NCBI GenBank assembly: GCA_021848345.1
Contig: JAJZUV010000002.1
Location: 248,001-312,000 of the forward strand
Reading direction: 5' to 3'
From: Pseudomonadota bacterium
GTDB lineage: Bacteria; Pseudomonadota; Gammaproteobacteria; Burkholderiales; Burkholderiaceae_C
Length of the DNA stretch: 64,000 nucleotides
Shown: positions 32,107-40,369 of the stretch, piece by piece
How positions within the stretch are numbered: the stretch's first letter is position 1
How the letters are laid out: every line of letters begins with the position of its first letter
Notes under the pieces: generated by a model
Seen by the model: the letters and a program-made list of their open reading frames with translations, nothing else
Told to the model about the DNA's origin: nothing
Database searches by the model: none
Program-made: the position numbers and the translations under genes

Positions 32107-32182
32107 TCCCCGATAGCTCAGTCGGTAGAGCGCCGGACTGTTAATCCGTAGGTCCCTGGTTCGAGCCCAGGTCGGGGAGCCA
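32107..32182 (+). tRNA. tRNA-Asn (anticodon GTT)
   Basis: A complete 76-nt tRNA. The acceptor stem is TCCCCGA with TCGGGGA, the D-arm AGCTCAGTCGGTAGAGC, the anticodon loop CTGTTAA with anticodon GTT, the T-loop TTCGAGC, and CCA is encoded at the end (32180-32182). Confidence 0.97.
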
Positions 32183-32235: not shown

Positions 32236-32583
32236 TCAGCGGACTGCGTCCGCGATAGCGTGGATTCGGTGAAGGAATGCGGGAACAACCGTTGCGACCG
32301 TGTCCCAGACGATCTCGAGATTCACCGTCATGTAGCCGTGGACGAGGCGGTTGCGCATCCCGGCGATGTCGCTCCATGGGACATCGGGATGAAGGGCCTT
32401 GAGTTCGGAGGACCATTTCGTGACCGCTTCGCCGATGACCTCCAGATTGCGAATCACCGCATCCTGGAGAACCTCATCCGCCATGAAATCCGCTTCCGAC
32501 TTGTCCGCGGTGAAGCGAAGCAGCTTCGTGGCGGCCGCCACGATGTGCCCGAGCAGGTCCCCATCGCGCAGCGCCGGCGTCAC
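32236..32583 (-). CDS. hepT: HepT-like toxin (DUF86 ribonuclease-type)
   Basis: This 115-residue helical protein has the HepT motif R-x4-H-x-Y in MRNRLVHGYMTV near residues 76-87, and VIRNLEVIGEAV before it. HepT proteins are HEPN-domain RNases; in the characterised pair the toxin is silenced by AMPylation of the motif tyrosine by MntA. The start overlaps the stop of the upstream nucleotidyltransferase gene by four bases, the usual antitoxin-toxin arrangement. It lies tail-to-tail with tRNA-Asn. Confidence 0.9.
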   Translation of the reverse strand: MTPALRDGDLLGHIVAAATKLLRFTADKSEADFMADEVLQDAVIRNLEVIGEAVTKWSSELKALHPDVPWSDIAGMRNRLVHGYMTVNLEIVWDTVATVVPAFLHRIHAIADAVR

Positions 32584-32876
32584 AGCGGAACGGCTTCCTG
32601 AACGATGCGCTCGCGTGCGGCGGGTGGGAAGTCTCCCGCCGTCAGAATGTCCACGCAGACGCCAAGCTCCTGCTCGATGGCGCGTTGCAGGCGGACCATG
32701 TCGAGCAGGGTCGCCCCGCGTGGTACGTCGACCAGCAGGTCCACGTCGCTGTGCTCGGTGTCCTCTCCGCGCGCGATCGAGCCAAACACCCGGACGTTGC
32801 GAGCGCCCAGGCGCTGGGCCATGCCGAGCACGGCCGCGCGATGCGCGGCGAGGATCACCGACGGGCGGGCGCTCAT
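32580..32876 (-). CDS. mntA: MntA-like nucleotidyltransferase antitoxin
   Basis: This 98-residue minimal nucleotidyltransferase has the GSX10DXD motif: GSIARGEDTEHSDVD near residues 32-46. It is expected to AMPylate and silence the HepT toxin encoded next. It is first in the pair and co-translated with it. The promoter should lie in the 532-base gap upstream; no convincing one is visible. Confidence 0.9.
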   Translation of the reverse strand: MSARPSVILAAHRAAVLGMAQRLGARNVRVFGSIARGEDTEHSDVDLLVDVPRGATLLDMVRLQRAIEQELGVCVDILTAGDFPPAARERIVQEAVPL

Positions 32877-33408
32877 GACATGGCTCCGATTGGAACGGAC
32901 GGTCTTCCTATTGTAGGCTGGGCGTCCATGGTTTCATCCAGCCCCTTCATGCGGTGAGCTCGACTTCCCCGTGCCCGGATTCGCCCTGTTCGGGGAGGCC
33001 CCATCCGACGTGCCACGCCATGAATCCGGGTCAGGAGGCCGCAGGGGTGCCTCAGGAGTCGACCGGCGCGCGACCGAAAACGGCCTGGTGGTGCGGCGCA
33101 AGCCCGGCGATCGCGGCGGCCGGCGCATGCGGCGGGCGCTTGTCGTCCATGGGCATGGCCACCTTCGCTCGGAGCTTCCCCGCAGGCACGCAAGGGGACT
33201 GCAAACGCGCCATCGATCGTCGCATCCTGTCATCGCGGGATGGTTCAAAGCTTGATACCCTGGACCCGATCGGCGGCCCCGATGGACCCCGACGACTCCG
33301 TCGCGCAGCGTGGCCCGGCGCTTCCGCGCGGAACCCGCCGGTCGGCGTACCCGGCGCAGGGCGGGCGATCCGGACCCGTTGCCGGAACCTTTCGAGGGCG
33401 ATCGATCC
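32877..33408. other. 532-base gap between the toxin-antitoxin pair and the polyketide operon
   Basis: Several open frames cross this stretch, but none has a recognisable domain, a ribosome-binding site or convincing codon use. It should carry the promoters of both flanking divergent operons. A GAGGG sequence 10 bases before the polyketide synthase ATG is the only clear signal. Confidence 0.5.
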
Positions 33409-34482
33409 ATGTACTTTCGCGGAATCGGAACGGCAGCGCCGCCAGGGCGCTACACCAAGGCCCAGTGTCACGACGCGTTCGCGCAATCCGACTGGTTCGC
33501 CAGGCTCGATGCGCGCTCGCACTTCATCGCCGGCCGGGTCCTGCTGCGCGACAACGGCATGGAGGCCCGACACCTCGCGCTGAACGCGTTGGAGGACGTG
33601 TTCGCCATCGAACCGAACGTCCTCGCGCGGCGATTTGGCGAACATGCTCCCGTGCTCGCCGCGCAGGCCGCCGAGCGCGCGCTCGCGCAGGCCGGGCTCG
33701 CGGCGGCGGACATCGGCGCCGTGGTGGTCAGCACCTGCACCGGCTACCTGTGCCCCGGCCTGTCGGGCTACGTGGTGGAGCGCCTGGGCCTGCGCCGCGA
33801 TGTGCAGGCCTTCGACCTGGTCGGCCAGGGCTGTGGCGCGGCATTGCCCAACATGCAGCTGGCCCGCGGCCTGCTGGCCGCGGGCGCGGCCGAGCACGTG
33901 CTGTCGATCTGCGTGGAGGTGTGCAGCGCCGCGATGTATCTCGACGACGACCCCGGCGTGCTGATCAGCGCCTGCCTGTTCGGCGACGGCGCCGGGGCCG
34001 CGGTGCTGTCGAACGCGCCGGGCAGCGGCGGGCCGCGCATCGCGTGGAAGGACTCCATGTCGCTGATCGAGCCGGACGAGCGCGAGGCGCTGATGTTCGA
34101 GCAACGCGACGGCATGCTGCGCAACATCCTGACCCGCGGCGTGCCGGTGCTTGCCGCCGGGCACGCGCAGCGCATTCTCGACGTCGTGCTGGCGCGCGCG
34201 GGGCTCGAAGCCGGCGACATCGCCACCTGGATCATGCATGCCGGCGGGCGCGACGTGCTGCTCGAGCTGGAGCGCCGGCTCGGCCTGTCGTCCCACGACC
34301 TGCGCTACAGCGCGGCGATGCTTCGCGAATACGGCAACCTGTCCAGCGCCTTCGTGTATTTCGTGCTGGAGGCCGCATTGGCCGACGACGCGCCGCGCGG
34401 CTGGTGGTGGCTGTCGTCCTTCGGCGCGGGCTTCAGCTGCCATGGAGCCCTGCTGCGGGTCGGCGACGAGGTCGGCGCATGA
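33409..34482 (+). CDS. Type III polyketide synthase (chalcone synthase-like)
   Basis: This 357-residue thiolase-fold enzyme has the type III PKS catalytic triad: Cys142 in LVGQGCGAALPN, His277 in WIMHAGGRD and Asn310 in REYGNLSSAF. The C-terminal loop SSFGAGFSCHG replaces the GFGPG loop. The N-terminal VVVSTCTGYLCPG is typical of bacterial alkylresorcinol/alkylpyrone synthases. It should condense an acyl starter with malonyl-CoA and cyclise the chain. It is the first gene of a five-gene, tightly coupled operon with a methyltransferase, FAD oxidoreductase, ACP and ketosynthase. The ATG at 33409 follows GAGGG. The product is unknown. Confidence 0.9.
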   Translation: MYFRGIGTAAPPGRYTKAQCHDAFAQSDWFARLDARSHFIAGRVLLRDNGMEARHLALNALEDVFAIEPNVLARRFGEHAPVLAAQAAERALAQAGLAAADIGAVVVSTCTGYLCPGLSGYVVERLGLRRDVQAFDLVGQGCGAALPNMQLARGLLAAGAAEHVLSICVEVCSAAMYLDDDPGVLISACLFGDGAGAAVLSNAPGSGGPRIAWKDSMSLIEPDEREALMFEQRDGMLRNILTRGVPVLAAGHAQRILDVVLARAGLEAGDIATWIMHAGGRDVLLELERRLGLSSHDLRYSAAMLREYGNLSSAFVYFVLEAALADDAPRGWWWLSSFGAGFSCHGALLRVGDEVGA

Positions 34483-35225
34483 AGCCGCTGCCGCGCATCG
34501 TTGGGGCCGAGACCCTCGACGGACTGGCCGAGGACGACCCCGACGCGATGCGCTCGCGGCGGGACCTCAGACGCGTGCATCGGGTCATGGGAAGTTGCTC
34601 CATGCTGTCGCGCATCCTGCGCGCATGGTCCCTGCCGCGGTCGCGAGCGCTGCGCGTGCTGGAACTCGGCGCCGGCGACGGCAGCCTGATGCTGCGCGTG
34701 GCGCGCGCGCTGGCGCCGCGCTGGCCGCGGGTCGAACTGACCCTGCTGGATCGCCAGGCCCTGGTCGAGCCCGAAACTCTGCGCCGATACGCCGGCCTCG
34801 GGTGGACCGCGACCCCGAGCCGGACGGACGTGCTGGACTGGGTGGCGGAGGCGGGCGCGAACCCGGGCGCGGACCCGGACGGCTGCGGGCCGCGTTGGGA
34901 CGCGATCGTGGCCAACCTGTTCCTGCATCACTTCCCGGAGCGGGAACTGGCCGGGCTGCTGCGGGCGGTGGCGGCTCGATGCGATCATTTCGTGGCCTTC
35001 GAGCCGCGCCGCGCGAGGTCCGCGCTCCTGGCATCGCACCTGATCGGAGCCATCGGCGCGAACGCCGTCACGCGCGAGGACGCTGTGCTGAGCGTGCACG
35101 CCGGGTTCCGCGGCCGGGAGCTGTCCGCGCTGTGGCCCGCGGACGTGGCGGCGTGGACCCTGCGCGAGGGGCCCGCGGGAGCCTTCAGCCATTGTTTCCA
35201 GGCGGTGCGAGAGGGGGCGGGCTGA
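34479..35225 (+). CDS. Class I SAM-dependent methyltransferase
   Basis: This 248-residue protein has the SAM-binding motif I RVLELGAGDGSLML (residues 59-72), an acidic motif II (LTLLDRQ) and ANLFLHHF at the motif IV position. Its start overlaps the polyketide synthase stop by four bases, and its stop overlaps the next start by one base. In this context it most likely methylates the polyketide product on oxygen or carbon. It resembles in role, not necessarily in descent, SrsB of the Streptomyces phenolic-lipid operon. The substrate is inferred from context only. Confidence 0.85.
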   Translation: MKPLPRIVGAETLDGLAEDDPDAMRSRRDLRRVHRVMGSCSMLSRILRAWSLPRSRALRVLELGAGDGSLMLRVARALAPRWPRVELTLLDRQALVEPETLRRYAGLGWTATPSRTDVLDWVAEAGANPGADPDGCGPRWDAIVANLFLHHFPERELAGLLRAVAARCDHFVAFEPRRARSALLASHLIGAIGANAVTREDAVLSVHAGFRGRELSALWPADVAAWTLREGPAGAFSHCFQAVREGAG

Positions 35226-36544
35226 TGCGCACCGATTTCGACGCCATCGTCATCGGGGCCGGCCCTGCGGGTTCGACGGCCGCGATCCTGCTGGGGCGCG
35301 CGGGCTGGTCGGTGGCCCTGATCGAGAAGCGGGACTTCCCGCGGCGCAAGGTCTGCGGCGAGTGCCTGGCGGCGAGCAACCTGTCCATCCTGGACGCGCT
35401 CGGCGTCGGCCAGGCCTACCGCGGCGCCGCCGGGCCCGAGCTGAAGCATCTGGCCCTGCTGCGCGGGGACGAACAGGTCCTCGCGGATCTGCCGCCGGGC
35501 GCTGTCGAGGGGCGGCGCTGGGGGCGAGCATTGGGGCGCGAGATCCTGGACACGATGTTGCGCGACCAGGCGCGCGCCGCGGGCGTGACCCTGCTGCAAC
35601 CCTGGGCCGTGCAAGGCGTGCGCGGTGGGGCGGGGGACTGGCGGGTCGAGGTCCGCGCGGTCGACTCCAGGGAATGCCTGAGCCTGCGCGCGCCGGTGGC
35701 CGTCGCGGCCAACGGGTCGTGGGAGGCCTTGCCGTCGGGGCTGCCGGGGCGCCGGCCCCGGCGTCGGGCCGGGGAACTGTTCGCCTTCAAGGCGAACTTC
35801 CGCGGCGTGGCGTTGCGGGAGGGTGTGCTGTCCGTGCTCGCCCTGGACGGTGGCTACGGGGGCATGGTGCTGGCCGAGCAAGGGATCGCGACCGTGGCCT
35901 GCTGCGTGCGTCGCGACCGGCTCGAGGCCTGCCGACGCGCACAGCCGGGGCTGCGCGCCGGGGAGGCGGTCGAGTCCTGGCTCGCACAAGACTGCCTGGG
36001 CGTTCGCACGGCGTTGGCCGGCGCCACTCGCCAAGGGCCCTGGCTGGCGGCCGGCCCTCTCGACCCGGGCGTGCGCCTGCGTGGCGACGACGCGATGTTT
36101 CGCATCGGCAACGCGGCGGGCGAGGCCCACCCGATCGTGGGCGAGGGCATGAGCATGGCCCTGCAATCGGCCTGGCTGCTGAGCGCGCAGTTGCTCGAGC
36201 TCGCCGGCCGGAACGGGCCGCCGCGCGATGCGGCGGCAGGCGCGAGCTGGCAGCGCGAGGCGGCCGCGCGCTACGCCGCGGCCTGGAAGCGCCAGTTCGT
36301 TCCGCGGATGCGCATCGCCGCGGCCTTCGCCCATGCGGCGATGCATCCGGCGACTTCGGTTGTGGGCCTGGGCGCGGCCCGACTCTGGCCGGGCCTGCTG
36401 ACCCGGGGCGCGAGCTGGAGCGGCAAGATCCGCGACATCATCGAACCCCCGAGCGCGTCGCCGCGCACGCGCCTTTCCCCGCAATCCCTTCGGCCGCAGG
36501 TCGATCGGGCTTCCCGCACGAACCGCCATGACGACAACCTTTGA
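35225..36544 (+). CDS. FAD-dependent oxidoreductase (geranylgeranyl reductase/monooxygenase-like)
   Basis: This 439-residue flavoprotein has the dinucleotide-binding GAGPAGS at residues 11-17, then EKRDFPRRKVCGECLA with a CxxC-like CGEC (44-47). The second FAD motif, around FRIGNAAGEAHPIVGEGMSMAL, has the GD-type aspartate replaced by asparagine. It groups by eye with geranylgeranyl-reductase-like and aromatic-ring-modifying flavoproteins. In this operon it probably hydroxylates, oxidises or reduces the polyketide. Its last 17 bases overlap the ACP gene, so the extreme C-terminus (rich in Arg and Pro) is probably flexible. Confidence 0.85.
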   Translation: MRTDFDAIVIGAGPAGSTAAILLGRAGWSVALIEKRDFPRRKVCGECLAASNLSILDALGVGQAYRGAAGPELKHLALLRGDEQVLADLPPGAVEGRRWGRALGREILDTMLRDQARAAGVTLLQPWAVQGVRGGAGDWRVEVRAVDSRECLSLRAPVAVAANGSWEALPSGLPGRRPRRRAGELFAFKANFRGVALREGVLSVLALDGGYGGMVLAEQGIATVACCVRRDRLEACRRAQPGLRAGEAVESWLAQDCLGVRTALAGATRQGPWLAAGPLDPGVRLRGDDAMFRIGNAAGEAHPIVGEGMSMALQSAWLLSAQLLELAGRNGPPRDAAAGASWQREAAARYAAAWKRQFVPRMRIAAAFAHAAMHPATSVVGLGAARLWPGLLTRGASWSGKIRDIIEPPSASPRTRLSPQSLRPQVDRASRTNRHDDNL

Positions 36545-36824
36545 GCGCCTGGGCGCGATCCTGGTCAAGGACTACAAGCTTTCCCCCGAAGCCCTGGTCC
36601 CGCAGGCCACGCTGGAGAGCCTGGGCATCGACTCGCTCGCGGCCGCCGAGCTGCTGTTCAGCGCGGAGGACGTGTTCGGGATCGTCTTTCCGCCCGAGCC
36701 CGTGCCGCTGCCCACGCTGGGCGACGTGGCCGCCTACATCGATGGCTTGATCGCGCAGCAGCATGCCGGCGACACCTCGGCAAAGCCCGACGCTCACGGC
36801 GGGCAGGGGCCGGTTCGGCCATGA
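36528..36824 (+). CDS. Acyl carrier protein
   Basis: This 98-residue protein has the phosphopantetheine site LGIDSLAAAELLF with Ser36, acidic helix II, and a Gly/Pro-rich tail of about 18 residues. It starts inside the previous gene (17-base overlap) and its stop overlaps the ketosynthase start by four bases. It is not beside fabD/fabG, so it is a dedicated ACP for this operon rather than the housekeeping AcpP. It probably carries the growing or starter acyl chain for the KS and type III PKS. Confidence 0.9.
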   Translation: MTTTFERLGAILVKDYKLSPEALVPQATLESLGIDSLAAAELLFSAEDVFGIVFPPEPVPLPTLGDVAAYIDGLIAQQHAGDTSAKPDAHGGQGPVRP

Positions 36825-38062
36825 GGAGAGTCGCCGTCACCGGCATGGGCGTGTTGAGCCCGTTGGGCAGGTCCACGGCCGAGGTGTACGCCCGTGCGCG
36901 CGCGGGACGATCCGGGGTTCGCCGCATCGACGCGCCGTTCGCCGGGCGCCTGCTGTCGCCGATCGCGGCCACGGTCGAGGACTTCGACGCCAGCGACGAT
37001 TTCGATCCCCCCAGGTTGCGCATGCTCGATCGCGTGAGCCAGTTCGCCGCGCTCGCCGCCAGGCAGGCCGTGGGCGCCGCCGGAGCCTGTCTGGAGGCTT
37101 GCGAACGCGAGCGCGCGGGAGTGTTCGTGGGAACCGGAATGGGCGGAAGCATCAGCAACGACGAGGGCTACCAGACGCTGTACGGGCAGGGCTCGGAGCG
37201 CATCAAGCCCTACACCGTGCTGCTGGGCATGCACAATGCTCCCGCCGCCTGGATCAGCCTGGAGCATGGCCTGCTCGGCCCCAGCCTGAGCTACTCGACC
37301 GCCTGTTCCTCGTCGGCCGTGGCCATCGGCGAGGCGTGGCTGCGTATCGCCTGCGGAAGCCTCGACCTGGCCATCGCCGGGGGCGCCGAGGCCCCGCTGT
37401 CCTTCGGCTCGCTGAAGGCATGGGAGGCGCTGCGCACCGTCGCGAGCGTCGACCCCGACGATCCCGCCGCGTCGTGCAAACCCTTCGCGCGCGAGCGCAG
37501 CGGCATGGTGCTGGGCGAAGGCGCCGCGATGCTGGTGCTCGAACCCTGGGATCGGGCGCTCGCCCGCGGGGCGACGGTCTGCGGGGAGGTCCTCGGCTAC
37601 GGCCTGAGCACCGATGTCGGCCACATCACCCGTCCCAGCGTCGAGGGCCAGGCCGCGGCCATGCGCGCGGCGCTTCGGTCCGCCGCGATCGGCCCGGCGG
37701 ACATCGACATGATCAACGCGCACGGGACCGCGACCCCGGCCAACGACGTGGCGGAAACCGCGGCGATCAAGGCGGTGTTCGGCGATCGCGCGACGCGCAT
37801 CCCGATCAGCGCGACCAAGGCCCTGCACGGCCACCTGCTCGGAGCCGCGGGGGCGCTGGAGTGCGTGCTGTCGCTGCTGGCGCTGCAGCACGGCACGGCC
37901 CTGCCCACGATGCACCTGCGAACGCCGGATCCGGCCTGCGATCTGGACTACGTGCCCAATGCGGCCCGCGACGGCGTGGCCGCGCGCACCATGCTGTCGA
38001 ATTCCTTCGCGTTCGGCGGCACCAACGCGGTCCTGGTGTTGGGCGCGGCGGACGCTACCTAG
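36821..38062 (+). CDS. Beta-ketoacyl-ACP synthase, FabF/FabB-like
   Basis: This 413-residue ketosynthase has the Cys-His-His set: Cys162 in YSTACSSSAVAIG, His301 in INAHGTATPANDV, and Lys333/His338 in TKALHGHLLGAAGA. The C-terminal SNSFAFGGTNAVLV is also standard. It should elongate ACP-bound acyl chains with malonyl-ACP. Placed after its own ACP and a type III PKS, it probably builds or extends a special fatty-acyl starter. It is the last gene of the coupled operon. Confidence 0.92.
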   Translation: MRRVAVTGMGVLSPLGRSTAEVYARARAGRSGVRRIDAPFAGRLLSPIAATVEDFDASDDFDPPRLRMLDRVSQFAALAARQAVGAAGACLEACERERAGVFVGTGMGGSISNDEGYQTLYGQGSERIKPYTVLLGMHNAPAAWISLEHGLLGPSLSYSTACSSSAVAIGEAWLRIACGSLDLAIAGGAEAPLSFGSLKAWEALRTVASVDPDDPAASCKPFARERSGMVLGEGAAMLVLEPWDRALARGATVCGEVLGYGLSTDVGHITRPSVEGQAAAMRAALRSAAIGPADIDMINAHGTATPANDVAETAAIKAVFGDRATRIPISATKALHGHLLGAAGALECVLSLLALQHGTALPTMHLRTPDPACDLDYVPNAARDGVAARTMLSNSFAFGGTNAVLVLGAADAT

Positions 38063-38142
38063 CAGGCCAGGGCGGCTGACGGGACTGCGCCGAGGGTCTC
38101 GCGCCCGCCGCGGGGCCAGTATCCAGAAAGCTGCGCAGATAA

Positions 38143-38172
38143 TTGCACAGTTAACTGAAGAAGTGCTAGATT
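38143..38172 (+). promoter_or_regulatory. MarR promoter with internal palindromic operator
   Basis: TTGCAC (38143-38148) and TAGATT (38167-38172) with an 18-base spacer form a promoter 10 bases before the MarR ATG. The spacer holds the perfect palindrome CAGTTAACTG (38148-38157). A MarR dimer bound there would block RNA polymerase, so autorepression is likely. Confidence 0.65.
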
Positions 38173-38181
38173 GGAGCCATC

Positions 38182-38610
38182 ATGGATCGCTCCGAACTCT
38201 CCGCGCTCGCCTCTGATCTGCGCGCCACGCTGGGCATGCTCAAGCGGCGCCTGCGCGAGCGCGCCTCGCTCGATGACCTGACGCCCTCGCAGACCGATGT
38301 GCTGCGCTGGCTGCATCACCACGACCAGGCCACGGTGTCGCGCCTGGCGCGCGAGTGCGGCCTGCGTCCGCAGTCCATGGCCACGATCGTCGCGACGTTG
38401 CAGGCCCGGGGCCTGGTGGCGGGCGCGTCCGATCCGCAGGACGGACGGCAGGTGCTGATCCGGCTGACTCCGCTGTGTCGGGACAGGATCTCGCAGGGGC
38501 GCGCCGCCCGGGAGGACTGGCTGGCCAGTCGTATCGAACAGCTCTCCGCGGAGCAACAAGAGCAATTGCGCGCGGCGGCTTCGCTGCTACGCCGCATTGC
38601 CGAGCCCTGA
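38182..38610 (+). CDS. MarR family transcriptional regulator
   Basis: This 142-residue winged-helix regulator has the MarR core: LTPSQTDVLRWLHHHDQATVSRLARECGLRPQSM, followed by the wing around ASDPQDGRQVLIRLT. It stands in front of a small membrane protein gene and an MFS exporter gene on the same strand, an arrangement common for drug- or phenolic-responsive MarR repressors. Since it directly follows the polyketide operon, the ligand may be the pathway product or an intermediate; this is inference. Confidence 0.92.
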   Translation: MDRSELSALASDLRATLGMLKRRLRERASLDDLTPSQTDVLRWLHHHDQATVSRLARECGLRPQSMATIVATLQARGLVAGASDPQDGRQVLIRLTPLCRDRISQGRAAREDWLASRIEQLSAEQQEQLRAAASLLRRIAEP

Positions 38611-38663
38611 TCCGGTCTTCCCGGATTCCCATTCAACCTGCAATCTCAGGCGAGCACACGACC

Positions 38664-38993
38664 ATGACCTGGCTGAATCTGGTGGCCTATTTCTTCGGAG
38701 GATTGTTCCTCTGCAACGCCATTCCCCATGCCGTGGGCGGAGTCATGGGGCAGGCGTTCCAGACGCCTTTCGCGAAGCCGCCCGGGCGGGGCTTGTCCTC
38801 GTCGACGGTGAACGTACTCTGGGGGTTTTTCAACGCGGCGGTGGCCTACGCGCTGCTGGCCCACGTGGGACGCTTCTCGTGGAAGGACACGCCGGACGTG
38901 CTGGCCGGTGCCGCCGGTGCCTTGCTGATCGCGCTGTTCTCGGCCCGGCACTTCGGTCGCTTCCACGGCGGCAACTTCACGGAGAGGTCTTGA
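38664..38993 (+). CDS. Small membrane protein of unknown function
   Basis: This 109-residue protein has about three hydrophobic helices (near 5-25, 45-66 and 76-92) and ends with a polar tail (SARHFGRFHGGNFTERS). I do not recognise a characterised family. It lies between a MarR regulator and an MFS exporter, and the exporter frame begins at or just after its stop. It may assist the exporter or be regulated together with it. Confidence 0.72.
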   Translation: MTWLNLVAYFFGGLFLCNAIPHAVGGVMGQAFQTPFAKPPGRGLSSSTVNVLWGFFNAAVAYALLAHVGRFSWKDTPDVLAGAAGALLIALFSARHFGRFHGGNFTERS

Positions 38994-38998
38994 ACGCC

Positions 38999-40369
38999 GT
39001 GGCGGCGTCGCCCACGCCGGCCTCGATCTGGAGAGTGGCGGCTGTCGCGATGCTCGGCTCGCTGCTGGTGCAACTGGACGCCACGATCGTCAATGTCTCC
39101 TTGTCGCCGCTCGCCGCCGATCTGCGGGCTTCGCTGTCGACCATCCAGTGGGTGACCAGCGGCTACCTGCTAGCCTTGACCTTCGCGCTGCCGCTGAGCG
39201 GCTGGCTGGTCGAGCGCATGGGTGCCAAACGCCTGTACATCGGCTGCTTCGCCGTGTTCACCCTCAGCTCGGCACTGTGCGCGCTGGCCTGGTCCGCGGC
39301 TTCGCTGATCGCCTTTCGGTTGCTGCAGGGGGCGAGCGGCGGGGTGCTCGCGCCGATGGCACAGTTGATCATGAAGCGTGCCGCCGGCTCGAGGTTCTCG
39401 CGCGTCGCCGGGTACGCGGCCGTCCCCGTGCTGCTCGGTCCGCTGCTCGGCCCTGTGCTGGCGGGCGCGCTGCTGCATTGGGGATCGTGGCGCTGGCTGT
39501 TCGTGGTCAACCTGCCGGTGGGCGTGTTGGCGCTGGTGCTCGCGGCCTGGTTCCTCCCGTGGGAGCCGCCCACCCGCACGGGGCGCAGGCTCGACTGGGT
39601 GGGGCTGCTGCTGCTGTCGCCGGGCCTGTCCTTGATGCTGTTCGGATTGGTGCGGCTTCCGGGACCGTCGGGCTTCGCGGCGGCCGTGGCGGGAGCCTCG
39701 TTGCTGGCGTGCTTCGTTGCGCTGCAGCGACGCAAGGGCGCCGAGGCCCTGCTGGACCTGGACCTGTTTCGCGGTCGCGCATTTCGCGCGGCGTCGATCG
39801 CCCAGTTCCTGGGCAACGGCGTGATGTTCGCCGGACAGATGCTGATTCCCCTGTTCCTGATCGATGCGCTCGGCCGATCCCCGGCCGCGATGGGCTGGAT
39901 GATGGCCCCGATGGGCCTCGGGCTGCTCATCGTCATGCCGTCCATGGGCTTTCTCACCGCGCGCCTGGGCGAACGCAGGGTCGCCGTCGCGGGGGCGTCG
40001 CTGGCGCTCGTGTCCGCGCTGGGCCTGGCGCTGCTGGCGGCCACCCGGCTGCCGATGGCCGTGCTCGCCGCGATCCTGCTGGCGCGCGGCCTGGGCCTCG
40101 GCGCGGTCGGGATTCCCAGCCTGTCCGTGGCCTACGCCTCGATCGCCCCCGAGGCCCTGCCGATGGCGACGACCACGCTCAACATCGTGCAGCGCATCGG
40201 CGGGCCCACGCTGACCACGCTATGCGCCGTGGGCTTGAGCGCGCTGCTGCATGGCGTGGCAGCGGCTCATGCCGCGCATGCCTGGGCGGGGGCTTTCGCA
40301 CTGCTGGCTGCGCTGCATGGCTTGATGGTGATGGCGGTGGCCGCCTTGCCGCGCCGCGCGGAGCCCTGA
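38999..40369 (+). CDS. MFS transporter, DHA2 (EmrB/QacA-like) family
   Basis: This protein of about 456 residues has some 14 hydrophobic helices. Typical DHA2 motifs are LDATIVNVSLSPLAADL in helix 1, TIQWVTSGYLLALTFALPLSG in helix 2, and the motif C region GPLLGPVLAGALLHWGSWRWLF. It probably exports a drug or a small metabolite by proton antiport. GGAGAGG lies before two possible starts: a TTG at 38990 (too close) and a GTG at 38999 (chosen). Control by the upstream MarR is likely. It may export the polyketide made by the preceding operon, but this is unproven. Confidence 0.88.
   Translation: MAASPTPASIWRVAAVAMLGSLLVQLDATIVNVSLSPLAADLRASLSTIQWVTSGYLLALTFALPLSGWLVERMGAKRLYIGCFAVFTLSSALCALAWSAASLIAFRLLQGASGGVLAPMAQLIMKRAAGSRFSRVAGYAAVPVLLGPLLGPVLAGALLHWGSWRWLFVVNLPVGVLALVLAAWFLPWEPPTRTGRRLDWVGLLLLSPGLSLMLFGLVRLPGPSGFAAAVAGASLLACFVALQRRKGAEALLDLDLFRGRAFRAASIAQFLGNGVMFAGQMLIPLFLIDALGRSPAAMGWMMAPMGLGLLIVMPSMGFLTARLGERRVAVAGASLALVSALGLALLAATRLPMAVLAAILLARGLGLGAVGIPSLSVAYASIAPEALPMATTTLNIVQRIGGPTLTTLCAVGLSALLHGVAAAHAAHAWAGAFALLAALHGLMVMAVAALPRRAEP

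Follow-up and report, generated by a model that had tools for sequence, protein, structure and literature searches.

The window, as we call the whole stretch of DNA analysed here, comprises 64,000 nt of contig JAJZUV010000002.1 from assembly GCA_021848345.1, and all coordinates below are positions in it. It carries a predicted operon in which an acyl carrier protein (ACP) and a FabF-like ketosynthase (KS) are added to a type III polyketide synthase (PKS), a methyltransferase (MT) and a flavin adenine dinucleotide (FAD)-dependent oxidoreductase, a three-gene core known from phenolic-lipid operons. The original prediction, made from the sequence, had described five overlapping genes at 33409-38062, and the open reading frames (ORFs) are indeed found there, all on the + strand. 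From PKS to KS, consecutive ORFs overlap by 4, 1, 17 and 4 nt:

33409..34482, + strand: type III PKS, 357 aa; Cys142-His277-Asn310, with cavity residues Phe230 and Asn239
34479..35225, + strand: S-adenosylmethionine-dependent class I MT, 248 aa; probable ring methyltransferase
35225..36544, + strand: FAD-dependent oxidoreductase, 439 aa; probable ring monooxygenase
36528..36824, + strand: dedicated ACP, 98 aa; phosphopantetheine Ser36 in DSL
36821..38062, + strand: FabF-like KS, 413 aa; Cys162-His301-Lys333-His338

In a Pfam scan, the PKS matches FAE1_CUT1_RppA (71 bits) and Chal_sti_synt_C (52 bits), the FAD gene FAD_binding_3, the ACP PP-binding, and the KS both the N- and C-terminal ketoacyl synthase families. 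The MT narrowly misses two models, with scores of 26.9 (cut-off 27) and 27.7 (cut-off 30). The PKS, MT and FAD oxidoreductase all lie in one predicted operon, as the phenolic-lipid operon type requires. The same scan detected no ketoreductase, dehydratase or enoyl reductase among the operon genes, and the operon contains no cyclase, aromatase or chain-length factor (CLF). In the source genome (3.26 Mb, 48 contigs), the type III PKS C-terminal family is matched once. Further ketosynthases and carrier proteins are encoded outside the locus, so that the ACP-KS pair is additional to the primary set. One other region of this genome, G000:C20 (L067, L068, L080, L081; L numbers are our own), has two ketosynthase and two carrier-protein matches.

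A search of genome contigs with the PKS returned 62 loci (53-97% identity) from Beta- and Gammaproteobacteria, Nitrospira and Verrucomicrobia; a plasmid locus of Caballeronia sp. SBC2 brought the set to 63. Some loci stop at a contig end, and a locus with at least 4.2 kb of sequence 3' of the PKS was called complete (48 of 63). The five-gene neighbourhood that the original prediction had proposed to look for recurs, in the same order and beyond chance, at 37 of the 63 loci and at 33 of the 48 complete ones. The other complete loci comprise nine with PKS-MT-FAD, three with PKS-MT and only a distant FAD match, one with PKS-MT and no FAD match, L009, which has no KS, and L039, which consists of PKS-ACP-KS. 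L034, with less than 4.2 kb after the PKS, is likewise PKS-ACP-KS. The genes are closely spaced: gaps are at most 100 nt for PKS-MT (58/59) and FAD-ACP (37/39), at most 20 nt for MT-FAD (58/58) and at most 31 nt for ACP-KS (39/39, with overlapping genes in 34). The dN/dS ratio, calculated by YN00 or else NG86 against five relatives, ranges from 0.04 to 0.30 for each of the five genes. The operon is genuine and conserved, and purifying selection acts on it.

The distribution of the PKS is patchy, as 7 of 150 same-family genomes carry it at E≤1e-30; at E 1e-25, it was found in 11 of 369 genomes of the class sample and 24 of 398 of the phylum sample, the source genome being counted each time. Among 40 regions retrieved in this wider sampling, which overlap in part with the 62-locus set, 11 belong to the PKS clade (at least 56% identity). 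Seven of these have the ACP and KS, two are cut by a contig end and two are without the pair. The 29 more distant PKS loci gave no ACP or KS match at E 1e-4.

The catalytic residues are intact, as the original prediction had claimed. Cys142, His277 and Asn310 of the PKS align with the Pks18 triad and are kept in 62, 62 and 61 of the 62 clade rows, the single miss being a gap; with this triad and its chalcone synthase (CHS)-like domains, the protein is a type III PKS. ACP Ser36 is present in 26/26 rows. Cys162, His301, Lys333 and His338 of the KS are present in 61/61 rows, which identifies a catalytic KS, not a CLF or KSQ, as expected of a condensing enzyme. In a tree that includes Pks18 and 4b0n fragments, the window PKS and its 61 relatives stand on one side of a 100/100 branch. 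Three cavity or tunnel positions are constant in 62 of the 62 clade rows: Asn239 at the CHS Phe265 position, Phe230 (Leu in Pks18, Trp in each of three alphaproteobacterial PKSs used for comparison), and Cys or Ser at 172, which corresponds to the small tunnel residue Cys205 of Pks18. DpgA, a 3,5-dihydroxyphenylacetyl-CoA synthase, is the best NCBIfam match of the PKS, but was rejected as its identity at 170.7 bits against a cut-off of 425.

Nine Pks18 tunnel positions were compared, including 144 and 148, which we take to be tunnel positions, and seven of the nine hold Cys, Thr, Ala or Ser in the present PKS. Positions 143, 205, 208, 209, 221, 266 and 348 are given in a legend (PMC6274091). 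According to the same source, resorcinol formation by ArsB is directed by Trp281, and pyrones are associated with Gly284 in ArsC (PMC6274091). Judged by its nine-residue distance from the CHS Phe265 column, Phe230 would occupy the ArsB Trp281 position, where it may favour a resorcinol over a pyrone.

The KS scores 420.9 bits against the NCBIfam fabF equivalog TIGR03150, under the cut-off of 493.75, and 413.8 bits against the beta-ketoacyl-ACP synthase II subfamily NF005589, over the cut-off of 387; its best solved relatives are FabF. In the KS tree, the PKS-adjoining KSs lie on one side of a 98/100 branch together with two orphan pairs, that is, pairs from genomes whose PKS has no adjoining KS. 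On the other side are the FabF of the source genome and ACP-KS pairs encoded by other members of the order. The KS of L049 groups with this other ACP-KS type, and the partial KS of L031 is of the same type by its neighbours. An alpha/beta hydrolase is encoded in the same stretch as the non-PKS pairs at 11 of 14 loci; none was found at E 1e-5 in the 62 PKS loci or in the window. Of these loci of the other pair type (L115, L117, L120-L124, L126, L128-L130), five also hold a class III aminotransferase and a HAD phosphatase in a small cluster.

At L034, L039 and L142, which have PKS-ACP-KS, no match to this MT was found and no FAD gene at the usual place. The pair thus appears tied to the PKS more than to the tailoring genes, and its association with the PKS is of long standing. 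The KS was also searched for in 16 genomes: the 13 in which neither gene adjoins the PKS, that of L009, and those of L034 and L039. The best KS matches in the genomes of Nitrospira, Verrucomicrobia, L023 and L040 are only 39-47% identical. In the genome of L035, one contig ends in a FAD-ACP-KS stretch whose KS is readable in several frames. The KS pocket residue at the FabF Ile108 position varies within the KS clade (n=43: N 14, T 12, M 7, S 6, A 2, V 1, I 1), and we therefore draw no conclusion about the pocket.

The limits of the unit are indicated by the nearest relative, the sister strain locus L002. It aligns with window positions 32968-38095 and resumes at 40366, without the 38096-40365 stretch (a MarR regulator, a small ORF and an MFS transporter), and has about 2 kb of additional sequence immediately upstream. 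Since the match stops just past the KS, at 38095, the unit ends with this gene. L002 and the window differ on either side of the 32968-38095 match, which, as expected, fits a self-contained unit. Outside the operon, no gene family is common to more than 8 of the 62 loci, so that the unit consists of the five genes. The downstream MarR and MFS genes were considered as part of the operon core and rejected, since no MarR match occurs in the 62 loci and both genes are absent in L002. A related MFS gene adjoins the operon in L034, L039 and L044, and Methylobacterium oryzae has a DHA2-family MFS gene immediately 5' of the PKS; the MFS protein is possibly an accessory exporter. Directly upstream of the operon, on the - strand at 32236-32876, is a pair of HepT-like and MNT-type nucleotidyltransferase genes of the toxin-antitoxin type, beside a tRNA-Asn at 32107-32182.

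Structure prediction of the MT (predicted local distance difference test, pLDDT, 94) gave weak matches to O-, N- and C-methyltransferases alike, with TM-scores (query length) of 0.39-0.61. These weak and mixed matches favour neither O- nor C-methylation, and the protein is probably a ring methyltransferase of one kind or the other. The FAD oxidoreductase is assigned by Pfam and NCBIfam to the geranylgeranyl-reductase/monooxygenase superfamily. Its predicted structure (pLDDT 89) has flavin halogenases (e.g. FasV, PltA, CndH) as nearest folds, followed by monooxygenases and reductases. A halogenase was rejected: the fold is shared, but WxWxIP, which we take to be the motif of FAD-dependent halogenases, is found in 0/58 relatives and not in the window protein. 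The FAD oxidoreductase is probably a ring monooxygenase.

A diverged version of the gene set is present on plasmids of Novosphingobium pentaromativorans (pLA3), N. resinovorum (pSA1) and strain PP1Y (Mpl). All five genes are homologous to those of the window, with identities of 30% (PKS), 25% (MT), 30% (FAD), 35% (ACP) and 43% (KS). Unlike in the window, they are ordered ACP-KS-PKS-FAD, with the MT divergent just upstream, and in the pLA3 PKS, Asn239 is replaced by Met and Phe230 by Trp. PKS-MT-FAD clusters that have no ACP-KS occur in Mesorhizobium, Paracoccus, Methylobacterium and Roseomonas, and their PKSs share about 50% identity with that of Novosphingobium, which suggests a second recruitment of ACP-KS. 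The KS tree sets the Novosphingobium KSs apart, but a joint tree of all PKS-linked KSs is not rejected (p-AU 0.317), so that two origins of the PKS-KS link are not demonstrated, and one ancient link with later losses is possible. In Mesorhizobium sp. INR15 (L131, 8212-9486), PKS-MT-FAD is followed by a gene of the cyclopropane-fatty-acyl-phospholipid synthase family, perhaps an acyl-chain modifier.

We lean, with modest confidence, towards the view that the operon makes a tailored phenolic lipid, with ACP and KS supplying an ACP-bound starter from which the PKS forms a 5-alkylresorcinol that the MT and FAD oxidoreductase then tailor. In the scheme we infer, the KS and dedicated ACP would form a small type II module, lengthening a fatty acyl chain drawn from primary metabolism and keeping the product on the ACP, as acyl-ACP or (perhaps unreduced) beta-ketoacyl-ACP. 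The type III PKS would accept the ACP-bound chain as starter and extend it with malonyl-CoA, and aldol condensation would close the ring to a 5-alkylresorcinol. The MT would add a methyl group to the ring, at a carbon or an oxygen, and hydroxylation or oxidation of the ring would fall to the flavoprotein. The genomic association makes the window PKS a candidate user of acyl-ACP. A bolder form of this scheme, possible in our view but doubtful, is a minimal type II/III hybrid in which the KS builds an unreduced beta-ketoacyl-ACP, as the lack of a ketoreductase, dehydratase and enoyl reductase in the operon would allow, and the PKS takes it directly and adds only two malonyl units. This arrangement would have arisen separately in beta/gammaproteobacteria and in Novosphingobium.

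Several observations weigh against starter supply by the pair. At 13 of the 48 complete loci, the PKS and MT have no adjoining ACP or KS. These loci belong to Nitrospira, Verrucomicrobia and some Proteobacteria, and their PKS cavity residues are unchanged, so the PKS can function without the adjacent pair. Clade KS and ACP genes lie away from the PKS in two genomes, those of L009 (KS 72%) and L046 (67%), and close to the PKS, L039 and L142 each show a remote match to the flavoprotein (27% and 30%). Two tunnel positions are bulkier than in Pks18: Ala209 is replaced by Met in 60/62 rows and Ile in 2/62, and Leu266 by Phe in 62/62. With tunnel residues so mixed, a long chain is plausible rather than established. 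Finally, 18 PKS sites distinguish loci that have ACP-KS from those that do not (39 versus 15 rows); they are a lead only, confounded by phylogeny because most rows without the pair form one part of the tree. The original prediction of starter supply is upheld in that the pair is dedicated, conserved and tracks the PKS in most relatives, as such a role would lead one to expect; its wording was too strong for a role that we infer and that has no adjacent pair to perform it at the 13 loci.

FabF-type KSs elsewhere set fatty-acid chain length. Together with those 13 loci, whose PKSs belong to the same clade and share the same cavity residues, this speaks for a PKS that uses ordinary acyl-CoA or housekeeping acyl-ACP, with the ACP and KS working alongside to tune chain length or lipid supply, without ever docking with it. 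We regard this as unlikely, given the tight ACP-KS spacing in 39/39 loci, the three loci where the pair adjoins the PKS although the usual MT and FAD are missing, and the existence of the Novosphingobium version. The intact Cys-His-Lys-His set, the absence of reducing enzymes from the operon and the lack of a flanking family common to the loci would also suit an ACP that bears malonyl or the growing polyketide, with the KS extending after or instead of the type III steps to give longer unreduced chains. The operon holds no cyclase, aromatase or CLF for such chains, however, and the KS has its top score against FabF (421 bits) and FabF as best solved relatives, which makes this improbable. Least probable in our estimate is a short-chain aromatic (a DpgA-like dihydroxyphenylacetate or a pyrone) and no lipid. 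The DpgA match (171 bits, though far under its cut-off) and the two bulkier tunnel positions favour it, and the mixed tunnel comparison shifts some weight to it from the phenolic-lipid reading, but seven of the nine positions are small or polar-small, no sixth partner gene is common to the loci, and the MT and FAD partners are as in lipid operons.

In teaching, type III PKSs are presented as enzymes that do without carrier proteins. With its free ACP and lone KS, this widespread operon offers a small testable system for delivery of an ACP-bound chain to such an enzyme, and it might open a way to phenolic lipids whose chains are controlled. If the hybrid form were true, the first condensation of a normally all-in-one type III PKS would be shifted to a separate KS. 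Cultured carriers exist (Azohydromonas lata, Massilia psychrophila, Caballeronia sp. SBC2), which makes a direct product search feasible.

The original prediction had likened the core to Streptomyces srsABC, which reportedly has a PKS, an MT and a flavoprotein in the same order as the window and no ACP-KS. The likeness of the core to known phenolic-lipid operons holds for the planctomycete operon and the cyanobacterial hidABC (hierridins), which have the same three enzyme types and PKSs that produce long-chain alkylresorcinols (PMC10896814, PMC8086630). Planctomycete PKSs of MT-oxidoreductase-PKS operons gave C15/C17 alkylresorcinols in Corynebacterium glutamicum; methylated resorcinols appeared when the Gimesia MT and FAD genes were added, with the methyl probably on carbon and the role of the FAD protein left open (PMC10896814). 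Unlike in the window, the order is mostly MT-oxidoreductase-PKS, and the available parts of these papers describe no dedicated ACP or KS (PMC10896814, PMC8086630). The CHS Phe265 position holds Met in the HidC clade (PMC8086630), in contrast to Asn in 62/62 PKSs here.

ArsA of Azotobacter is a type I fatty-acid synthase. Its ACP domain passes acyl chains directly to the type III PKSs ArsB and ArsC (PMC6274091), whereas the carrier in the window is a free ACP with a single KS. Germicidin synthase (Gcs) and SCO7671 take hexanoyl-ACP; unlike the window PKS as we read it, they use short to medium starters and form pyrones, and no dedicated ACP-KS is mentioned in the available part of the source (PMC6274091). 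In cylindrocyclophane biosynthesis, the type III PKS CylI is supplied by an upstream carrier-protein-based line of a free-standing ACP and two type I PKSs (PMC8086630), as against one FabF-like KS here. Type III PKSs already known to use acyl-ACP are Gcs, SCO7671, ArsB and ArsC, and HidC has been proposed to do so (PMC6274091, PMC8086630). Such use is therefore not new in itself, which tempers the contrast with CoA starters drawn in the original prediction. The further statement there that no characterised pathway has exactly this gene set is uncontradicted by the titles and abstract openings of the open-access literature, among the matches listed. Set beside these systems, the ACP-KS pair is a new element on a known PKS-MT-FAD core.

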